A DNA stretch of 64,000 bases from Hexactinellida sp. DTS-2022 (taxonomy: Eukaryota > Porifera > Hexactinellida). The position numbers and the translations under genes are program-made. Below the pieces are notes generated by a model. That model did no database searches. It saw nothing but the letters and a program-made list of their open reading frames with translations, and was not told the DNA's origin. The stretch spans positions 2,356,001 through 2,420,000 of the forward strand of contig JAPNXP010000004.1 in NCBI GenBank assembly GCA_028753945.1. The letters run 5' to 3'. This document shows positions 5,591 through 44,319 of this stretch, in pieces (position 1 is the first letter of the stretch; each line of letters begins with the position of its first letter).

Positions 5591-5724
5591 TACCCTTATC
5601 CATAGCCTACTCTATATATGGCCTGACAGTAGATATACCAGGGATGCACAAGAAGATGGGAAATTGAGGTGCCTTCATTTGTTAGAATTTTGGAGCTTTC
5701 ATTTGTTAGAATTTTCTGAGCTTT

Positions 5725-6005
5725 CACTTGTTAGAATAATTTTAGATACCACCTTCACTTGTTAGAATAATTTTAGATACTACCTTCACTTGTTAGAATA
5801 ATTTTAGATACTTACCTTCACTTGTTGGAATAATTTTAGATACCACCTTCACTTGTTAGAATAATTTTAGATACTACCTTCACTTGTTAGAATAATTTTA
5901 GATACTTACCTTCACTTGTTGGAATAATTTTAGATACCACCTTCACTTGTTAGAATAATTTTAGATACTACCTTCACTTGTTAGAATAATTTTGGATACT
6001 ACTAT
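5725..6005 (+). repeat. Left subterminal array of MULE1
   Basis: Nine copies of a 28-30 bp unit based on CACTTGTTAGAATAATTTTA. The copies vary in a three-unit pattern (a TTGG variant recurs at every third unit), pointing to growth by duplicating blocks of three. These are probably transposase binding sites, an inference from their mirror placement at both ends. Confidence 0.9.
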
Positions 6006-6108
6006 AATACACTGAATTGATTACTCAATTTGAATAGAATTATAGGTACGTTTGCATATTTATTGCTAATGTAATGGAAAGAGTATAGAAACGAAGAATG
6101 TAACTAAG

Positions 6109-7706
6109 TTAATTGGTAAATATTTGAAACATGTCCTGAATTTCTGATCGACATGTAGGGCATGATTGTCCTAGATCCTGAATTCTTTGACTGCATCCTG
6201 GACAACTATTAGCATGCCTGCAGGGCAAAAAGATCCAGGTAGCATTACGGGATTCAAGGCATACAACACACTTATTTTCTTCTCCAGGTCTGTTAGTATC
6301 CTCGTCGTCAGAATCTTCCGAATCGTTTGAGAGAACATTGGCATTCGTGTTTATCCTACCAATTGTATGGCTGATGGCTTTAAGATACTCCCAAGGATTA
6401 TATTCTCCGTCGCTTAGTTTTTGTCTTATTATCCTTCGACGTTCAAAATTCTGGACATTTTTCTTTTTTCTTGGTCTACTAATCTCCAAGCCTAGTTGTA
6501 ACCGACCAATGTCGTTGTCCGTGTCTTGTATAACTTGATTGAGTGTAGCCATAAACGTCCATATCCTCGGGTGACAGGTACGAATTAGTGACTTTAGTTT
6601 AGAGTGATAACTCTCAGCTGCGTTATTGGTTGAAATATTGAGGTTGTAGACTGAGAGTTCCCCAGGTTCGATTTGACTCAACCATCTTTTTTTGAAATAT
6701 TTATTAAGTTTTTGTAGTCTAATCATATCAGAATTACCCAAACTTGGTATCTGAAGATAAGCATAAGTGGGATTTATCAGAGATGCGGGTAAAAACGGAT
6801 AGCCATCAGTTGTTTTATGTAACTTTCGATTTCTTGACTATTTCTGAAAGCTTGAGCGAGTCCGACCTCTTGTGTTTTGGCCCAAATTCTTTGTGTGAAA
6901 TGGAACCAACACCCATAAATTTCAAACTGAGGAAGTGCTTTTTTCATTGCATTCCGGGCTGCTGGCTCCCAATCTGACATTGATGCCAATGGTCGAAAGT
7001 GGGGAATGCAGCTAAAGATCTTGTCTATCACAGCTTGATACAAATCTTGACTTTTTCCGGTCATTAAACAATGTATAGCTGGTAGACTATGCCTTCCAAC
7101 CGATACAAATACGGTCCATAATTGAGCAAACTGTATGGGTACTGTAAAAAATGTACCGTCAAATTGTATATTTGTGATCTCTGAGAGAAATCCAGCCATT
7201 TGTTCTGAAAAGAATACAACGCCAGTTTGATCGCCACTCGTCACACTAAATTTGAAATATTTTCCTAAAATGGTGGTGGTATGTATCATATCAACAAACT
7301 CAGAAGCGTTCAATGGTATTTTGGGTTCCACCGTCTTTCTTGCACGGTACATTGTTAATTCACATTGAGGAAACGATATTTCACATGCGAATGGGCTGTC
7401 TCTTGTAGCATCATCGAATACTTTTCTTAGAGTGGTTTGTGAATTTTTAGCAAGCGTTTTACACTTTGTATTTAGACTATATACTTCTCCCTTATATTCA
7501 TCGACATCATGATTGTGTCCCTTCAGAGGTGTTATCAAATTTGTATCGCGATTTAATTTGCTCGTTCCTTTACAAGTATTCCTAAATAACACGCATTTGA
7601 GGTAGATATAATTTCCCTTAAGCTTCGATTTAATATATTTATTCCCGTCAGAGGTGGTAAAAACTTTTCCGAAACTGCGTTTGTATTCATCTGTTGTAAA
7701 TTCCAT
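6109..7706 (-). pseudogene. MULE1 transposase: FLYWCH-like, MULE DDE and RING finger
   Basis: Two blocks in adjacent frames. Block 1 (6777-7706, 309 residues) has an N-terminal FLYWCH-like zinc region (Cys 38 and 45 and a HNH near residue 65) and the MULE core with FDGTFF (first Asp), SDWEPAARNA (second Asp) and GCWFHF. Block 2 (6109-6741) has NAAESYHSKL (third acidic residue) and then, at its last 55 residues, a C3HC4 RING: CVVC, FLPCRH, CPGC, CPTC. The RING spacing resembles IAP/MDM2-type E3 ligases. Loss of one T in a T run near 6795 explains the frame change; otherwise the gene looks whole. The start ATG at 7706 precedes the zinc region directly. Confidence 0.88.
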
Positions 7707-7989
7707 TTCTATCCTTATTCGTAATAAATTATGTCATTAGTACAACTATTTATATAACGCATTGTTCAATATAATCATTTGTAAAACCACAATAAGAAAC
7801 GCCATAAATATCATTGTTTGTAGACACCATTCAAAAAAGAAAATGTTGATGAAAATCAAAATAACTGAGTAATTGATGAAGCCTGAACTTAGTAAATAGT
7901 AGACAACTACTTTTGAAAAACAATAATAACCAAACATCCGTCTTGAAATGCAAGTTGAAATTATGGATTCTAAGAAGTGAAGGTAGTAA

Positions 7990-8430
7990 ACAAAAACCAT
8001 TCTAACAAGTGAAGGTAACTTCAAGGTATTATCAAAAATTATTCTAACAAGTGAAAGGTAGTATCTAAAATTATTCTAACAAGTGAAGGTGGTATCTAAA
8101 ATTATTCTAACAAGTGAAAGGTAGTATCTAAAATTATTCTAACAAGTGAAGGTGGTATCTAAAATTATTCTAACAAGTGAAGGTAGTATCTAAAATTATT
8201 CTAACAAGTGAAGGTGGTATCTAAAATTATTCGAACAAGTGAAGGTGGTATCCAAAATTATTCTAACAAGTGAAGGTAAGTATCTAAAATTATTCTAACA
8301 AGTGAAGGTGGTATCTAAAATTATTCTAACAAGTGAAGGTAGTATCTAAAATTATTCTAACAAGTGAAGGTAGTATCTAAAATTATTCTAACAAGTGAAG
8401 GTGGTATCTAAAATTATTCTAACAAGTGAA
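7990..8430 (-). repeat. Right subterminal array of MULE1
   Basis: About 14 copies of the same 29-bp unit as at 5725-6005, inverted (ATTCTAACAAGTGAAGGT phase). The array is longer than the left one, so the two have grown independently. Confidence 0.9.
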
Positions 8431-8920
8431 AGCTCCAAAATTCTAACAAATGAAGCGCCCCCGGGAAATTTTAATATTTTCTATATTGAACTACTTAGTT
8501 CTTTATGGGTCTCTAGGTCGTAAACATAACTCAGCCCAGTTAGCCCGTGATTAATATTAGCTGTAATGACAACGGTGATCGGATTTTCATAATTTAATAG
8601 TAATAATAAACTCAAACAGTACAATTTATAATATTAATATACTACAGTGAATATACTACACAATTATTTGCTTTCTTTCCTCTCTCCTCTTTCTCTCTCT
8701 GGCTCTAGCAGTGACACATGACACACTTAACTACATAATAGAAATAAGAATAAACAGAGTAATACAAATCATGGTAAATACTAATAAGTAGACACATAAT
8801 TAAGAGAATTTCTTTAATTTACGCTTTTCTATACTTTTTGAAAGAAACAGTGAGTTATAATTATAATTCTTTAACTTTGTTTGCAAGAAAGCAATTCGCT
8901 GCGGTAAAGACTAGCTTCGA

Positions 8921-19877: not shown

Positions 19878-20062
19878 CAGGGTTTCATCCAGGCATATGC
19901 AGCCCGCCTCGAGGCGCGTGAATTTGGAGGGAAACATTTCTAGGCGCGCGAAAATCGATAGATGCTTCCGTAGACGTAATACAAAATGAGTAATTTAGGC
20001 GCGTGTGAGCGAGCTCAAACTAAATCTAGGCGCGCGGGAAATTTTGTCTCGATGAAAGCCTG
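19878..20062. mobile_element. hAT-type MITE, 185 bp, TAGGCGCG family
   Basis: Ends CAGGGTTTCATCCAGGC and, inverted, CAGGCTTTCATCGAGAC. Flanks ACCAAAAG and ATCAGAAG (6 of 8). TAGGCGCGxG motifs repeat inside. A relative with a perfect TSD is at 37490-37706. It splits the P3 RNase H block. Confidence 0.75.
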
Positions 20063-21000
20063 ATCAGAAGGGTGTGGTACACTAGTGTCTAACTGTTTAG
20101 TTGGAGAAAATAACTTGACAAAGTTCACGTTTAAAGGGTAATTGTCGGTAGAAATAATCTTTACTTTCAAACCGCAAGATTCGATAGCCAAAATACAAGA
20201 CTTAATTATAGAAAAAAGGTTTTCAGCAGATATAGATGCGCAAGGTATCAAACGAGAGATACAGGACCATTTTTTGTGTAAACTAGAAACCATGATAGCA
20301 AATACAGTTTTTGTGGGGTTTTTAGGGGATAATTTAGGACCAAATATTTTCCCACCCTTCCCACCCCTCAGAGTTAAGTTAACGTGGGTCTCATCCATCT
20401 GAATAATTACATTCTTCTCTTGAGAACTTAAAGAAGAAGTTACCTGGCTAAGGTAAGTACAAGAGTCGTTTTCCAGCCCAAAAGAAGAGTACAACTTTCT
20501 AGTGTATGAACATGTGGAAGAGAAATGCATTCTGAACTTTGGAGAATTTGTAACTTGCAGGAGAAACCAGATGCGTTTTAATGGCCATAATTTGTGTAAG
20601 AACATTATAACTCCTTCCCTTCTTGTAAATACCCACATTCTCTAGTTGGCCAAGAATAAATTGTAATCTTGGCAAATCGGAACAATTGGATTCTGTTTCA
20701 TCACTATCTAATAGATTACATATGGCCTCCTCAATATGTTATTTTGCTTTAGAGATAAGGTGAGGATGTTTCTTCTGAGGGGAAGAACTAAGTTTCAGAG
20801 TAATCTCTGTAAACAGCGTTTCAATTTGTTGGATATCGGTGATAGAGATAAGTGAGAGAGAAATGGACTCCTCCCATATATATAATATTATATATCCGTT
20901 CACAGATAAAAAAAGAATTTATTTCAAGAGAAACATCTGCACAAATATTATTATTTTCCATCTTAGGCAAAAAAATCTCACACAATTATCTGTTTGAATC

Positions 21001-22708: not shown

Positions 22709-25700
22709 CGTGGACTACGAAATAATGACGGAGTACTGAAATGAAAAAACGGACCATAGATATGTTAGAAGTGCATTGGTTATTGGTCCTAATTAGAGAC
22801 TAAATTATCAACTATGTTATTTTTATTGTTCATTTAATCATGGGTGTATAATAATTTGTCACTAAATTTAATAACCAACCAAATTGTTAATTAAGAACAT
22901 TTGGCTAACCTTTTGTTTATTGATTAATTAACCTTTGTTGTCTATTGTCTTAACTCGAAAGGTTAACTTTTTGTTGATTGGTTATAATAATTTGTTGTCT
23001 ATTGGTCTATTGGTTAATCTTTTTTTTTTTAACATTTAGCTTTCTAGTTTATTTATTTTATTGTGCTCGACGTAAAGATGCCTAATCAGTGTTCTGCACC
23101 TGTGTGTAGGAGTAGTTATCGAGGTGAACCATATACACCAGTGTTCAAACTTCCAAATACTCCCCCTGAACTTCGTGAGCAGTGGTTAAAATCTCTTCAT
23201 CGAGAGAACATAGAAAATCTAAAGCATATTTACGTTCTCTCCATCATTTTATGCCTGAAGATATTATCACCGTGGACAAAATAATGCAAGCAGACGGAAA
23301 GTTCACCGAGAAATTACGCGAAAGGCCCAAGCTTCGTACTACAGCCGTTCCTATGCTCTTACCTGGATGTCCGGCCTATCTTTCAGCTGAACAAGTTGGG
23401 AGACCTACTCGATTTACACGCGAGTCGAAAGAAACAGAACAATTTGCACGAGCTCTTGACTTAAGCCTGCAGCAACATGAAAGAGATAACGATGCATTTA
23501 TGTAAACAGTTTAAAGACCTAATTAAGAAAATTCCAGGACTTATTTTACCAAATAAGTGGATGGTTTGTCATTCTGACTATGATTCCCTTCATATATATA
23601 AACCCGAGTTCTCAGATCAGGGAATGAAGATTCAAGCTTGTTTGAAAGTATCTGGCAACTTAAGAATCTTTTCGTTTCGCGATAACCTCAGTATTCCGTT
23701 GACGTTGGATGTTTTATCTGATATACGACAGATCGAAGAAATTATCCAACAGACTGAAGATTTTTACATTAATGACAAAAATTCTACAAACCCGGACCAG
23801 CTTGTTTTTCATATTAATCAGGCCATTAAGCACGTTAATTTGGCAAAGAAAAGGCTCATTTCTAATTCTTCAGACTCAGATGATAGTCCAGAAACGGATT
23901 CCTATATTTCACAGCTTCAATTCATCGAATGCCAATTAGATAATATTCTCCCAAGTAAATTTAGGCGTAGATTTAATGTTCTTACTCAGGTAATGGCTTT
24001 AAAATCTCACCTGATCTCTCCAGCTTGTTACAGATACTTACAGTCACTCGAATGCCTCTCTTTACCACATCCTAAAACTCTTCAAAAACTCTACTCAAAT
24101 TTTGGGCTAGAGAATGATTTTTCAGCATTGCTTATACAAGCTACCTCTGAGTTTAGCGAAAAGGAAAAGAATCTTATTCTTCAACTGGATGAGATACATT
24201 TAAAATCTAACGTCGATTATAAGGGAGGAAAAATATTTGGCTACTCATTGCAACCTGATCACCCGATTAAAACTGTTTTCGCCATAATGGCATCAAGTCT
24301 TTATAAAAAGTGGTCAGAAATTGTCCGCTTGCTTCCATGGTCTTCTAATTCTGCTACCGAGATTTATACAGTGGTCAAGTCTGTCATTGGTGACATTGAA
24401 CGCTGTGGTCTAAAGGTGCAAGTTATCTGTACTGATAACTATCCTCTAAATGTGAACTTTTTCAAACTTTTTTCCTCTGATAAAAAGACTCTGACACCTA
24501 CTGCTATTCATCCCATTGATTCAGAAAGAAAAATCTTCTTAATTTTCGATTTCGTTCATATTGTAAAATCAATACGAAACAACTGGATCAATTTGAAAGA
24601 TTATGAACATACATTTTCTTATCCAAACACACTTATTTTTCCGAACTATGAAAATAGCCAACATATACATATTGCGAAATTTCAAGATATTCGAATGCTT
24701 TACAAAAACGAGCAGAGTTTAATCATCAAACAGGGTCATCGTTTAACAGCTAAAGCTTGCTGGCCCACAAGTTTAGAGCGGCAAAATGTCAGCCTAGCTT
24801 TAAAGATTTTCGACACATCAACACTCGCTGCATTATCTATTTACAACTCCGCACGAACAAATTCCGAAACCCAAACAATCGAGTTTCTTGACATTATTAT
24901 AAAAGTTTGGAAAATCTTCAATGTCAATACAACACATAAGCATATCAGACTTAATGATGATTTTTCCAAACCTCTTACGTATGATGATTATCGTTTTATT
25001 TTTCTACGGCTCATTGTTAATTGGCTTGCACGATGGCGATCTCGTGAAAATAAACACGGTAAATTGAGTCCCCAAACCTTCACAAGCTTCTCTCACTCGT
25101 GCCTTGCCCTGATTGAAATAGTAAATCATCTCACTCAAAATTGTGGATTTGATTACGTGCTCATATCACGATTACAAAATGACCCAATCGAACATCATTT
25201 TGGTTTGTATCGTATGATGTCTGGTGCACATTATCATATTAGCTATTCTCAAATAATTGAAAGTGAACGACGGATCAAGCTATCAAGCATCCTAAAATAT
25301 TCTCGAGAAAGGAACAATGAGATTACGTAAGTTTAAAGGATATGATCGATTCCTGTTCCTCCTCATCTAACGAACCTTCCAATTATGCTTTAAACCTAGA
25401 TACATACCTCATAGCATTGCAATCCTTTTCGACCATTACTTTTGATAGTTCACTTCTTCAATCAGTTGCCTTTGTCGGTGGATATGCTGTACACTCATAT
25501 TTGAAGCAATCTGTCAAGTGTGATACTTGTATGTCATTGATTACACAGGATAAAGAACTCGATATCGTTGGTACGGAAGATACTTATAAACTAATTCAAC
25601 TTATTGACCGAGGTGCTCTCAAATGGCCATCTCATATTGTTATAGATGCCATTATTATTGTGTTAAAGATCTTTATTACAATCGAAAATGACGAAACCTT

Positions 25701-33844: not shown

Positions 33845-34557
33845 CACTGACCAGCCAAAAGTATTTGAACGATAGGGATTTTAATGCACACACAATATTC
33901 ATCCGGTAACTTATTAACGGCTATCTAAAATACTCTGAAATGACTATAAATAACTTATTATAGATATATGTTGCAGTCTATTGCCGAAATTAGTCATTTG
34001 CGCAATTGACTAGTTAGTTGCGCAAAAAACTAATTGGTTCGTCATTTGCGCAATTGACTAGTCTATTGCCGAAGTCAACAAAACATCATTAGTTTTCAGA
34101 TTTTTCAGGCTTCTATTTTAATGTCGGATGATTATATATTGTTGAATCTTCACTTACGTAAGCATATCTTCACTATTACTTTCCTCAGTGCCCTGACACT
34201 TGCTACGCCAGGTATGCCGCCCCTGGCTATTTTAGAGTGTGTTAATTAATAGTAATCTTCAACAAAATTGGCAATACGTGACAATAAAGTGCAGTAGAAA
34301 AAATATGATGCGGGCGGTGGAGCTGAAACAAGTTTATCATTAACAATGCAAATGGCTTTACCGACTGTGTATCGATATAAGCATTTTCAACCTCAAGGAG
34401 AAGTAATCACGTTTGGGTGATGATATCTTGATTTCACTGTTAATTTCTATATACTGTAACTTAAATTATGTAGTCGGAAATAGTATATAAACGAAAGCTA
34501 GCATGAGTCCAATTAAGTTAAACGTGGATATATTTTTGCATTTTTGTTGGTTGAGAA

Positions 34558-36990
34558 TTGAGACTAATTATGAATATTGAAGCTCGTTTCTACGAGTCAT
34601 TATACAAATTATCAAAAGCCAATCGTTCAGATCTATTTACACGCATTGAAGTAGATGAAAAGATACTTTTTCTCTCTGGGGTACCTCCGAAGAGCAATTC
34701 CTCTAATTATAATAAGTGGTATCGTCTCAATAAAAGATTCACAATTGTTAAGTTGCAGACTTCAAATTTGCTATATTTGAAAGGAGATGCTGCAGCTTTA
34801 AATAAGAGAGTTGTACCAATTGAAGATATGTTTTCTATCATTAAAAAGATTCGCATAGATCAGGGGCATCCTGGTCGTGATGGCCTTCATAAAGCTATTT
34901 CTCAGAAATACCATGGCATAACGAAAGAGGTTTGTCAAATTTACGTATCTTATTGCCAATTTTGCCAGTTTAAGAAGCATAAGAAACCAATGAAATCGTT
35001 AGTTGTAAAACCTATATCTTCTTCAGCTTACTTGTCCAGAGGTCAAATGGATCTCATTGATTTTTCGTCTACTTTCCCTGAGACTAACGAACCATATAAG
35101 TGGTTATTGGTTTACCAAGACCATTTGACAAAATATATTCGTATATGTCCTCTTATTAATAAATCAGCTCAAGAGGTATCTAAAGTTTTAATGAATATTT
35201 TCTGGGACTTAGGTGCTCCACTATTGTTACAAAGTGATAATCAGGGTTGCCAATCCAATCCAATCCAATCGACAATCCAATCCAATCGAGCCAAATTTGG
35301 ACAATCGGCAATCCAAATTTGGACAATCGATTATTCGGATGACAATCCAATCGCAATCGACAATCCAAAATATCATCGATTCTTTTGGATTGTTTCTCCG
35401 ATTTTTTTCGATCGTTTACTGCTCAGTATTATATCAAAAAGAGTTATGTTTCATCATATGTTCAAACTTAAAACATATATTATTGGGTTTAATTGACGAG
35501 CAATTGAGCATTTTAAATTTTGGCATTATTTAGATATTGAAAAAACAAACAATCGGAAAAAATCGATGAAATTCATCGATTGCAATCCAATCGATAATCC
35601 AATCGATGAAAAATGCAGCAATCCAATCGACAATCCAATCGATGAAAAATGAAGCAATCCAATCGACAATCCAATCGATGATAAATGCAGCAATCGGCAA
35701 TCGAAAATATTCTCGATTGGATTGGATTGGCAACCCTGGTGATAATGGAAGAGAGTTCCGAAATGAGCTGCTCTTCCAACAACTCAATCAACACTGGCCA
35801 TATTCGAAGATCATTCATGGTAAGCCACGCTACCCACAGTCTCAAGGTTCTGTTGAGCGTGCTAATCAAAGTATCAAACAACTTTTTACTACTTCTTGCC
35901 TTGAGCATTCCACAAATTGCTGGATAAAATTTGTTGTACAGGTACAATATCAAAAAAATACAAGTTTTCATACTACACTCGGAATGACACCATTTGAGGC
36001 CAGTTTTAATTGCAAGCCTCCTTTGGGATTAGCAGAATTAGGTATTCCTGATGAGCTATCAAATGACATAATTACAGAAGAAGACCTAGATATAATTATT
36101 GAAGATATTAATCAATCGGAGGGAGTATTCATTGAACAGGCCCATGGAAACGAACCAATGAACACGGGTATTACAGACTATCCTCAAAGTTTTGATTCTG
36201 GAAACTTTGAAGCATACATAGAAGAAATATCACTACCTCTTCCTTCAAATCTTCAGGTGTATGATCCACCTAACCAATTACTTCCTCATTATGAACCCTA
36301 TATAAATTCAAAGTTTCCCCCTGCTGAAACTGATGTTGACTCAAATTCAATACCTTCAAATGAATCTCCTTTTGAACAAAGTTATTCCCCTTCCTCCATC
36401 CTCAACATAAACTGTGTTGAATGTGGACTGGAAACATCCAAACTTCATAGTTGTCCTGATTGCTTACGGTATATTCATGTCCCATGTGGCATCCAACTTG
36501 GTGAAGAGGGCTTTGGTTCCAGAATACATACTTTGCAAAAATTGTTCGTTAAACAGAAAACGTGAGAAAGCAGAATCAAATCGATGCACTATTAAATGCA
36601 AGCAACAAAAATTGCATAACCGTATGCTTAAGTATAGTGCCAATAAACCAAACCACCGATTTCTAAACCTGATGTAAGGACAACACTAGGAAGTAGAAAT
36701 AAGATTGGGGTTATAGCTGAAAACCGAGATGGATATTATACAATAGCTACCAAACAAGGAAAAATTGATACTCCTTTTACCAGAAACCAATTTGATTTAT
36801 GTACAGCAAAAGTACTCATGTTGGATGAAATGCCTGAATCAACAATTACATACACAAATGCTATGCAGAACGCTTTATTGAGTACTACTTATTCTTGAAA
36901 ATGTAAGAATTGTAAGAATAATAGATGCCCTTGCAGAAGGAGTAGCAAACAATGCCATACGAGGTGCCATAATGGTAAAGTGTACAAATG
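34558..36990 (+). pseudogene. Ginger-like integrase/transposase, interrupted
   Basis: The first part (34558-35241) has an HHCC zinc region, QGHPGRDGLHK and YCQFCQ, then the integrase core with QMDLIDF (first Asp) and LLQSDN (second Asp). The second part (35747-36565) has SQGSVERANQSIK, which carries the Glu of the D,D-35-E triad, a linker rich in acidic residues, and a zinc-binding CVEC, CPDC, HVPC cluster. A further Cys-rich tail follows near 36898-36990 (CKNCKNNRCPCRR). This order is known from KRBA2-like proteins and Ginger transposases. A MITE separates the first two parts. Ginger is favoured over an LTR element because of the terminal inverted repeats. Confidence 0.8.
35242..35738. mobile_element. 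hAT-type MITE in the integrase gene
   Basis: Ends CAGGGTTGCCAATCCAATCC and the exact inverse; perfect 8-bp TSD GTGATAAT at 35234-35241 and 35739-35746. Interior ATCGATTGCAATCC motifs. 497 bp. It landed right after the second catalytic Asp. Confidence 0.93.
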
Positions 36991-41057: not shown

Positions 41058-41105
41058 TTATTGACCAAGCATGGCAGAAGGACGATAACTAACGTTTGTA
41101 CATGG
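41058..41105 (-). pseudogene. Possible end of a host exon, downstream of the RAG1-like insertion
   Basis: On the minus strand the bases after the TSD read CTNVSYRPSAMLGQ and a stop (41058-41060), with AATAAA overlapping that stop. It continues the frame of 44186-44319 when one TSD copy is ignored. No family recognised. Confidence 0.3.
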
Positions 41106-44100
41106 CACAGTGGGTTATTATGGCTATTCAGGGGAAATAGGCATTTGCGAGGCAGACAGACCTATCAAATGTATTATTTGCGTATGGGTTATCAACCCTC
41201 TACATTCAATTTACATCACTTAATTTTATGTACCGCTTCAATTTTTTGATTTAATGACGTCATCGTGAGATCACATATTTACAAAAATATCTATTTAGCT
41301 CTATAATGTGTTCCTAAATACTTCGAATGCAATGCATATTATTTTCACTCTATTTAAGACATACTACTTCATGCTTTCACGATTCAATATTAACTTTCAA
41401 ATTTTTATTATTAATATCATAGATACTAAACTAAGGAATTTATTTGAAGAGCAATGAATCCAAAAGTTTGTCCTGATCCAGTGAAGCCACTTTATCTCCT
41501 TTGCACTTCTCCTTCCTGATATGCCCTATTTCTCCGCAACGTTTGCACACTAAAACTCTACGGTAACTTGAAAAGAGAGGGTCACTCTAACTAAGAAGTC
41601 TAACAAAAACATCTCTGATGTTTAAGGAAAATGAATTTTTTCTTAAAAGGTGTTCACGATAGCGCCTTATTAGCTTATTACAAGCTTCTACAGCCTCTTC
41701 TGAATATTCTTTCAGTGCATAACCGTCATTGCAATCACGGATTAATTCTGTGGAATGAGCTAAAACCTTATGCAATGAAGGGGTAATACTTGCCCATGGG
41801 AAGGCTGTTAAAATTAGCTCGTAAGTCTGTTTGCAAAGGACATCCATTTTTTCTGTTTCTACCTCCTGGCTACTGTTAAAAACTCGTAAGATAACTGATA
41901 GATTCATTTGAATGATTGCAATCTGCTCTCTAACGTCTGCCGGAATTAGACAGAATACCCATGTGATAAAATCATTTTTATTGGAAAAACATTGCCTAGA
42001 AATATTCCCTGTTGAAGTAGTACCGCCTTGAGGTGTTGGCTGATCTATTCGAAGGCCAGTTTTTTCAAAGAGAAATTCAGAACAAAACTTTTTCGCTGTT
42101 TCGATTGGTTTTGAAGTAGGCGACCATACTCTCCTTCCAGACTTTAAATGATAAACAAGGAGCATGACCAATGGAAGACACAAGTATAGCTATGTAAAGG
42201 CGACGCCGACAGTATGTTTATATCGGATAGTGGTTCATGAGTGATACCTAACCTATCAGCATGAGGAAGTGATAAATATTCATCCGCATCCACGTAATTG
42301 AACAGTTCTTTTGCATCTGCTATGTGCCTATTAATAGGGAATCCGGCCCAGACTAATTCTAGATCTTTTAATTCGTGTTTATGTGCAGTACATAACTGAC
42401 ACGATGCGCCACCAGCTCCGCTTAGAATACCAGACATCTTCCCATCGAGCATACTACGGCTGATTTTAACACGAACAACACCTTCAGGAAACTTTATTCC
42501 TTCTTGCTCAATGACTGATACTTCTGGATTAATGAAATTAGTCATAATGAATTTAACGTTCTCATAACATTCCTTCTGGGCCAATAATACAACTGGTCTT
42601 ACGCCAAATGAAGAATTAGGTGAGTAGTTTTTCCATATTTGCATGTTACTCGAGTTGTGTATGGATAAAATTTTGAATGCGAATAAGATAAAAAATTTCG
42701 AACTTGGGGTTGGATTGAGTTGGTAATGATTATAAATCTGATGACAACCAGAACCATCGAGGCCGTCAGCAATTTTTACTGATAAAGGGAATTCAAAATC
42801 AAGGATCGGAGGTAATGTTTGAAATAGACGTAATAAACTCTGGAATAAAATCCTTCTATAAGATAGTGAGATCCCGATAGTAACATTATGGACATTGTTT
42901 ACATAGGTTAACTCGTTAACTAGAACGGCATCCTTACGATATTCAGCAAGTTTAGAATAAGATGGAAATATTATGTCCTCTGATTTACAAATTAACCGAA
43001 AAGATGTATATTTTTGCTTACCAATTTCGAGAAGATCAAGCAAGAACGTTGATTTATCTATGGACATAATTTTCGATTTATCTGCAAATGTCCCCTTTGA
43101 AATGATTTCCTTGCAGAAGTTTGCCGTGCTTACATCCTTAGTCTCGTTAGAAATAAGTTGAAGCGCTTGAGCGGCTATGGTTTTGGCACTAACATCCTCT
43201 TTCTCAGCTATTTGACGGATTAGTTGCAATACTGGCGCTAATCTAGTTCTCAATCCCTTGAGGGTTAACTTTGATAAGTCCTTTCGTATTTCTGCTGATA
43301 AGTCAACGGTAAAGATTGCATTGTCAGGTGAAAGCATTTTCTCCGCAGGTTGTTTAACTCTAGGAGAGTAAAACATCAACTCCTCCCAGGTGCATAAATT
43401 ACTTTTCTTTACAAAGCTCTCTCTTCCCGATTTGAGATCGCGAAACTTTCGAGTAATGAAATGAAATTCGCTATCCGGCTGTTGGAATATGTTAAGTAAT
43501 TCCTCAGAAGCAGCTCTGATTGATGGTTTAGAGTTTAAAAGTTTAAAAGCCTCTTTGTTATTCATTCTATAATATCAACAGTCAAACAATGTTAAAATTT
43601 GATCAATTTTGAATTTTTATATTTTAAACATTTTAAGAAATTTATTAGTGACTTCTAGAAAATTGGGCAGAAGGGCCTCGGGGCGGCTTGGTGCGGTCCG
43701 ATAAAATATACCAAATTAAAGTTAAACCAATTAGCTATCATAATAAAAATTAAAAACATCTGCTCACGACTGCTCACCAATATTTTTCACACTAAATAGG
43801 CAAAATAATTGTGTCCGATTATTGTTCAACATCATTGAGAGTACACAGAAAATTTTCAGAGAATTTGCTTACGACTCTCTCTTCGTATATTATATACTAG
43901 CATAAATGTCAAAGGAATAAGAATATCATATCCGCCTTTACGTTGCTATGTAATTAAATATCAATTTATAAATAGAATCCAACAGTTGTGAAACATCAAA
44001 CTTTCACTATGAAAATTGTTTATCAAGTTAGTAATTAATCAACACACAAGTGAAGAACCTGAAGTACTATGACAATGAAAAGTTGGATTTATAGGTTTTA

Positions 44101-44185
44101 GACAATGCGGAATAAGAATATAATAATATCAAAGCCATTCAGGAGTTTGAAAAATTACACTAATTCCCCATAATAACCCACTGTG
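41106..44185 (-). mobile_element. RAG1-like (Transib-superfamily) transposon, full length
   Basis: The ends are CACAGTGGGTTATTATGG on the left and the exact inverse on the right over 18 bp. Both start with CACAGTG, the consensus heptamer of V(D)J recombination signals and of RAG/Transib termini. The TSD CATGG is perfect at 41101-41105 and 44186-44190; 5 bp is the length made by RAG and Transib. The 3,080-bp element carries a single minus-strand gene for a RAG1-core protein and no second gene. No nonamer at 12- or 23-bp spacing is evident. Confidence 0.93.
41440..43565 (-). pseudogene. RAG1-like transposase
   Basis: About 708 codons from the ATG at 43565. Block 1 (473 residues) aligns with the RAG1 core: a FLLDLLEIGKQKYTSFR region like the RAG1 pre-RNase H part, VKIADGLDGSG with the first Asp at 267, SSKFFILFAFKIL, PNSSFGVRPVVLLA, and SMLDGKMSG with the second Asp at 374, then the zinc pair CQLC (389/392). 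After one frame change near 42160, block 2 (41587-42183) has LHKVLAH, the His pair of the second zinc region, and EEAVEACNKLIRRYR, whose Glu 166 matches RAG1 E962. One in-frame TAG (41587-41589) precedes SDPLFSSYRR and a zinc knuckle CKRCGEIGH near 41500-41550; the frame ends at 41440. So one frameshift and one stop spoil an otherwise complete gene. No N-terminal RING or RAG2 partner. Confidence 0.88.
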
Positions 44186-44319
44186 CATGGTTTTGAATCT
44201 CTTCCAAGCTTATATTCAGAGTTATCAGCTATTTTGTACAGCGGATCATTGGTTTCACCACTTTTAACGATTATCAGACTGTATTCCTCAACAATGGTAG
44301 GATTGGTGGTATCTTTACT
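44186..44319 (-). pseudogene. Possible host coding exon split by the RAG1-like element
   Basis: Minus-strand frame DTTNPTIVEEYSLIIVKSG followed by ETNDPLYKIADNSEYKLGR and DSKP up to the insertion. It is open for 44 codons, begins after an AG that could be a 3' splice site (44320), and reopens in frame beyond the element for 15 codons to a stop at 41058. Composition is that of a hydrophilic C-terminal tail. I do not recognise the protein. Confidence 0.35.

Follow-up and report, generated by a model that had tools for sequence, protein, structure and literature searches.

The locus

A stretch of 64,000 nucleotides from the hexactinellid sponge Hexactinellida sp. DTS-2022 (assembly GCA_028753945.1, contig JAPNXP010000004.1, positions 2,356,001 to 2,420,000 of the forward strand; hereafter the window, whose coordinates are used unless stated otherwise) contains at 41106-44185 a 3080-bp insertion flanked by CATGG duplications. 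Perfect 18-bp inverted ends (CACAGTGGGTTATTATGG at 41106-41123 and its inverse at 44168-44185) enclose a single minus-strand transposase gene of the RAG1/Transib type, with the long one of two unequal ends located downstream and the short one upstream of the gene (Table 1). The gene of this copy is disrupted by a single frameshift and a single premature stop, which ends the second open block ahead of a zinc-knuckle tail. The first seven bases of CACAGTGGGTTATT, the outer block of both ends, correspond to the heptamer consensus of the recombination signal sequence (RSS). Altogether, the insertion is probably a cut-and-paste DNA transposon of the Transib superfamily, of Subgroup I type, with a zinc region and a knuckle tail like those of RAG1L, without a RAG2L gene and from a young family.

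A preliminary description of this DNA had already delineated the coordinates, 18-bp CACAGTG ends and CATGG duplications, all of which are exact, as well as the two lesions of the gene, which are seen in the two open blocks. Its 18-bp repeat equally stands, but the asymmetry inward of the repeat had been overlooked.

Table 1. Coordinates of the transposon, its ends and its gene in the window
Feature	Position	Strand	Remark
Left target-site duplication CATGG	41101-41105	.	exact 5-bp duplication in 7/7 full-length copies
Long end, block 1 CACAGTGGGTTATT, 14 bp	41106-41119	+	
Long end, 12-bp spacer	41120-41131	+	length 12 bp in 9 chosen, stacked long-end representatives; sequence variable
Long end, block 2 GGGAAATAGG	41132-41141	+	from base 27 of the end
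Transposase gene, RAG1/Transib type	41431-43565	-	broken in the window copy; low boundary set by comparison with intact copies
Open block 2, 200 residues	41587-42189	-	LHKVLAH, catalytic Glu
Open block 1, 476 residues	42144-43574	-	NBD-like region, two catalytic Asp, CxxC
Short end, block 2 GGGAATTAGT	44159-44168	-	from base 18 of the end
Short end, 3-bp spacer	44169-44171	-	
Short end, block 1 CACAGTGGGTTATT	44172-44185	-	
Right target-site duplication CATGG	44186-44190	.	

Copies in the host genome and recent mobility

The host assembly (112.4 Mb in 18 contigs) was searched for copies and holds seven of full length, the window copy included, with the other six being 98.3-99.3% identical to it. 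Target-site duplications (TSDs) of exactly 5 bp, in six different sequences, flank all seven loci; a chance inverted repeat is thus ruled out, because the copies carry TSDs of their own. As the full-length copies are near-identical and two of the seven retain an uninterrupted transposase frame of 708-710 residues, the element has been mobile recently, in agreement with the preliminary description, and the search for further copies proposed there has brought up neither contrary ends nor another TSD length. One window-type copy (L009/L019; G000:C4:1678806-1684905 of the host genome) combines an intact transposase frame with a ~3-kb insertion outside the frame, with ~7 bp of element sequence on both sides of the insertion. 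The more distant relatives recovered in the host genome, at 64-91% DNA identity and including a lineage with its own 712-residue frame, represent a lower bound, as does the total of family copies. Both ends together with the TSD were identified in 6 of 20 larger regions examined. Further inverted pairs seen in these larger regions are taken as chance.

The genome also contains a non-autonomous family of ~1.06 kb (for example, L051-L086), which seems to have been mobilised by this Transib group; its members carry CACAGTGGTTTATT ends, and most are flanked by exact 5-bp TSDs. A sample of 20 block-1 site pairs comprised 18 with exact duplications, one with a duplication one base off and one without a match; one of the 20, a pair with no TSD, lacks block 2 at one end. 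A domesticated, no longer mobile host gene derived from a Transib would be expected to conserve its amino acids between lineages, as is observed, but the terminal inverted repeats (TIRs), the exact TSDs of six sequences at 7/7 loci, the near-identity of the copies and the mobilised short family make domestication very improbable.

Bipartite and asymmetric ends

Block 1, in the form CACAGTGGKTTATT, occurs at 136 sites in the genome versus 4 for the reversed control pattern. Block 2, a sequence near AGGAAGTAGG, begins at base 27 in the long end and at base 18 in the short end. One of these two positions holds the best block 2 match in all 21 distinct ends whose block 1 deviates by a single base or less. 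In all eight lineages for which both ends are available, the spacers between the blocks measure 12 bp at the long and 3 bp at the short end, and the two ends agree at 8-10 of the 10 bases of block 2. The 27/18 register gives a mean identity of 0.89 versus a mean of 0.26 (standard deviation 0.09) over 1296 registers; register 26/17 ties with it because the likeness of block 2 reaches one to two bases further upstream.

Patterns composed from known ends match 59 long-type and 49 short-type sites genome-wide, with no match for one intermediate spacing or for the reversed controls. Convergent ends pair as one long and one short end in 34/34 cases, although these pairs are not independent, as 27 of them, at 1017-1073 bp, represent one non-autonomous family with two short-end types; 40 of the 108 pattern-matched ends have no matched partner. 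The short end of the window family deviates from the pattern, which keeps this family out of the pair count, yet its seven full-length copies share the long/short design.

The window lineage and lineage B are separated by a non-synonymous divergence (dN) of ~0.24; synonymous divergence (dS) was not computable for them, which is read here as saturation. Only L034 allowed a dN/dS ratio between lineages to be calculated (0.08, with dS 3.8); all other loci returned dS = -1. As blocks and spacers persist despite apparently saturated dS, it is most likely selection, and not recent copying, that maintains both blocks and both spacer lengths.

In the long ends, a stretch near CAGATAGACCTAT can be seen after block 2 at bases 48-60, exact or one base off in four of the nine representatives and partial in three more; none was seen at short ends.

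The transposase

Against a Pfam RAG1 cut-off of 25 bits, the C-terminal block of the window copy (25.5 bits) and an intact copy (26.9 bits) score just above threshold, so that the profile search called for in the preliminary description gave a match; the N-terminal block of the window copy by itself remains below the cut-off. For comparison, 52 sponge-family sequences were aligned with the best 120 of 183 RAG1/RAG1L matches (the RAG clade) and the best 119 of 765 matches of a search led by HzTransib, called insect-type on the basis of few named rows, all of them insects. The catalytic triad consists of Asp270, counted from Met (codon 42756-42758), Asp374 (codon 42444-42446) and Glu168 of block 2 (codon 41686-41688), with CxxC at residues 389-392 and LHKVLAH at block 2 residues 139-145 (41755-41775). 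Asp374, CxxC and LHKVLAH had been placed correctly by eye beforehand, but the residues then chosen for the first Asp, 267, and for the Glu, 166 of block 2, are not the conserved ones. Residue 166 is Ala, while position 267 is Asp in 49/52 sponge-family rows, E (68) or D (50) among the 120 RAG-clade rows and W, Y or C in 119/119 insect-type rows.

Two features of the zinc-binding part set the sponge family apart from the insect-type proteins. The stretch from CxxC to the next His has a median length of 65 residues in the sponge family (range 25-67, 49 rows) and of 64 in the RAG clade (60-68, 118 rows) versus 30 in the insect-type (28-31, 119 rows), and is read, by its place rather than by helix matching, as alpha11-alpha12 of the zinc domain. 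The zinc-knuckle tail, counted in rows that reach the catalytic Glu, occurs in 24/31 sponge-family, 44/115 RAG-clade and 0/118 insect-type rows. In the sponge family it takes the form CX2CX4HX3-6C, mostly with GHX5C versus GHX4C in RAG1L; the 71 RAG-clade rows without knuckle comprise many vertebrate RAG1 and at least one invertebrate sequence (Ptychodera, P0086). A further candidate feature, an extension of ~160 N-terminal residues over Transib, was dismissed: the solved chain of HzTransib is shorter, but many insect-type relatives are also ~700 residues long.

The 710-residue protein contains no RING or N-terminal zinc family (Pfam, E <= 1). As stated in the preliminary description, the element carries a RAG1-type gene only; apart from the transposase and fragments of it, no frame of the seven full-length copies exceeds 87 residues (frames of at least 80 residues examined). 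The RAG2 Pfam families gave no match in the host genome, but a control search likewise matched nowhere, and a search with Kelch_6 shows only that kelch repeats occur in this genome.

Placement among Transib and RAG1 relatives

A 5-bp TSD, CAC heptamer-like TIRs and a single RAG1-core-like D-D-E gene place the element in the Transib superfamily. Pfam RAG1, sequence scores and fold search agree on the Transib/RAG1 lineage that had been proposed at the outset. By sequence, HzTransib scores 81 bits versus 34 for amphioxus RAG1L and 28 for RAG1; in fold searches, performed with the whole model only, HzTransib is the top match by a small margin, with HzTransib and RAG1 about equal. Two pattern scans each of genome contigs and viral contigs returned no bacterial or viral relative to serve as outgroup. 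An unrooted maximum-likelihood tree of 45 rows picked from 291 resolves three main clades, each with 100/100 support: the sponge family (14 rows), insect-type Transib (13 rows) and RAG1/RAG1L (18 rows). The tree, another analysis that the preliminary description had suggested, thus sets the sponge family in a clade of its own, outside the two others; being unrooted, it rules out nesting but leaves the sister pair undecided. The RAG1L label does not mark one clade, as P0102 (mislabelled) lies inside vertebrate RAG1 with the brittle-star P0100 beside it.

Subgroup I Transibs, which include ctenophore, Hydra (Transib-9) and bacterial sequences, have been described by asymmetric TIRs, a CTT1-type tail and the alpha11-alpha12 stretch, and a possible intermediate position linking Transib to RAG1L has been proposed for them (Tao et al. 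2022; PMC9435367). The sponge element possesses an asymmetric TIR pair and a CTT1-type tail and has kept the alpha11-alpha12 stretch. It fits Subgroup I because the two protein features are common to RAG1L and absent in insect-type Transib, the assignment being made by the published description. That the element represents a lineage between Transib and ProtoRAG, as had initially been considered, is plausible but unproven on this unrooted tree of sponge-family, insect-type and RAG1/RAG1L rows.

Two alternative assignments were rejected as such: an insect-type Transib on protein features and tree, and a RAGL element on the missing second gene and the position outside the RAG clade. The element could still be conceived as a standard member of Subgroup II (insect-type) in which a zinc knuckle and an additional loop are present by chance. 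HzTransib is after all the nearest solved relative by sequence and, narrowly, by fold, asymmetric ends with 12/23 spacing are described for certain Transibs of flies and mosquitoes (PMC8355894), and midpoint rooting, used for display only, joins the sponge family with insect-type Transib; yet the loop is short in 119/119 and the knuckle absent in 118/118 insect-type rows (among the best 119 of 765), and the sponge family is separated by full support, so that we consider such an origin unlikely. Slightly less probable again is a RAGL (ProtoRAG-type) transposon that has lost its RAG2L gene. The RAG1L-like zinc region and tail and the shared 13+4/13+10 end geometry of AanRAGL (PMC9435367) would agree with such a loss, but the protein scores closer to HzTransib than to RAG1L, lies outside the 100/100 RAG1/RAG1L clade, has neither RING nor N-terminal zinc family and is accompanied by no other frame above 87 residues in any full-length copy. 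No RAG2L thus stands beside the transposase, and the assignment to Subgroup I is preferred.

Proposed mechanism and evolutionary meaning

By analogy with RAG1, HzTransib and ProtoRAG, a dimer of the ~710-residue transposase would bring together one long-spacer and one short-spacer end; the anatomy of the element, the copies and the TSDs are the observed part of this scheme. Block 1 with CACAGTG would be read by the catalytic core and the knuckle tail, and block 2 perhaps by the N-terminal NBD-like domain. The distance between block 1 and block 2 differs by 9 bp between the ends, about one helical turn. The D-D-E RNase H site would nick the CAC ends and form hairpins there, and insertion would follow with a stagger of 5 bp. 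With its frameshift and stop, the window copy itself is a dead insertion that at best can be moved by intact relatives.

In a hypothesis that bears on the origin of the 12/23 rule, asymmetric 12/23 signals are recognised only by RAG1 complexed with RAG2 (PMC8355894). A more speculative reading, which we hold to be rather doubtful, sees in the sponge element a third, early-diverging Transib lineage that keeps the state just before the gain of RAG2L, with a RAG1L-like enzyme alone on bipartite 10/19 ends. If true, obligatory pairing of a short with a long signal, a forerunner of the 12/23 rule, would be older than RAG2 and the bilaterian ancestor, and would be enforced by a RAG1-type protein alone. 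A compact, recently mobile element without RAG2L, with intact copies, a short mobilised family and fixed long/short ends, offers a direct test system for RAG2-free recognition of asymmetric ends.

Other elements in the window

A MULE-type element at 5674-8450 contains a MULE transposase domain (E 5.6e-11) together with a weak FLYWCH finger at 6777-7733(-) and an adjoining RING-finger frame at 6109-6837(-) (E 2.6e-13); its ends are built of a single 31-bp tandem repeat, arrayed nine times on the left and, in inverted orientation, 13 times on the right. A TNP-like RNase H domain is encoded by the frame at 23465-25330 (E 1.2e-10) and again by that at 20015-20641 (E 1.3e-8), both of a P-element/THAP9-like kind. 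The region 34555-36565 is possibly a retroelement remnant: it has pieces of an integrase, with H2C2 zinc domain and rve core, and after them a SCAND3-like zinc finger, none of which reaches its Pfam cut-off.

Comparison with known systems

HzTransib of Helicoverpa zea (PDB 6pqn series), here counted among Subgroup II after Tao et al. 2022, resembles the sponge element in its one gene, the D-D-E RNase H fold and the CxxC/HxxxxH zinc domain, but insect-type proteins are without ~35 zinc-domain residues and without the C-terminal zinc knuckle. Vertebrate RAG1 with its 12/23 RSS shares the fold, the triad, the CACAGTG heptamer and two spacers about a helical turn apart; it differs by the absence of a transposon and of a zinc-knuckle tail, and by a distance from heptamer to second block of 12/23 versus 10/19 in the sponge element. 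The ProtoRAG/RAG1L system of Branchiostoma (PDB 6b40; PMC8289069) equally has a 5-bp TSD, CAC ends, a CX2CX3GHX4C tail, a zinc stretch of ~64 residues and a preference for a 5'/3' pair of ends, but comprises two genes, a longer N-terminus and a TR1/TR5 spacing of 27/31 bp.

The Subgroup I Transibs (PMC9435367), besides the features that define them, have no RAG2L either; the knuckle of the sponge element is usually one residue longer. The end geometry finds its counterpart in AanRAGL, a pelagophyte RAGL with a 13-bp and a 10-bp block separated by 4/13-bp spacers (PMC9435367). Counted in this way, the sponge ends equally read 13 + 4/13 + 10, corresponding to 10/19 when measured from the heptamer, with block 2 from base 18/27 in both elements. 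AanRAGL, however, carries RAG1L and RAG2L, and its block sequences differ (CACACCCAAACCT in AanRAGL). A literature search judged on titles and the openings of abstracts, with supplements outside its scope, found no published sponge Transib. While asymmetric ends as such were already known, the end geometry of AanRAGL is present here in an element free of RAG2L.
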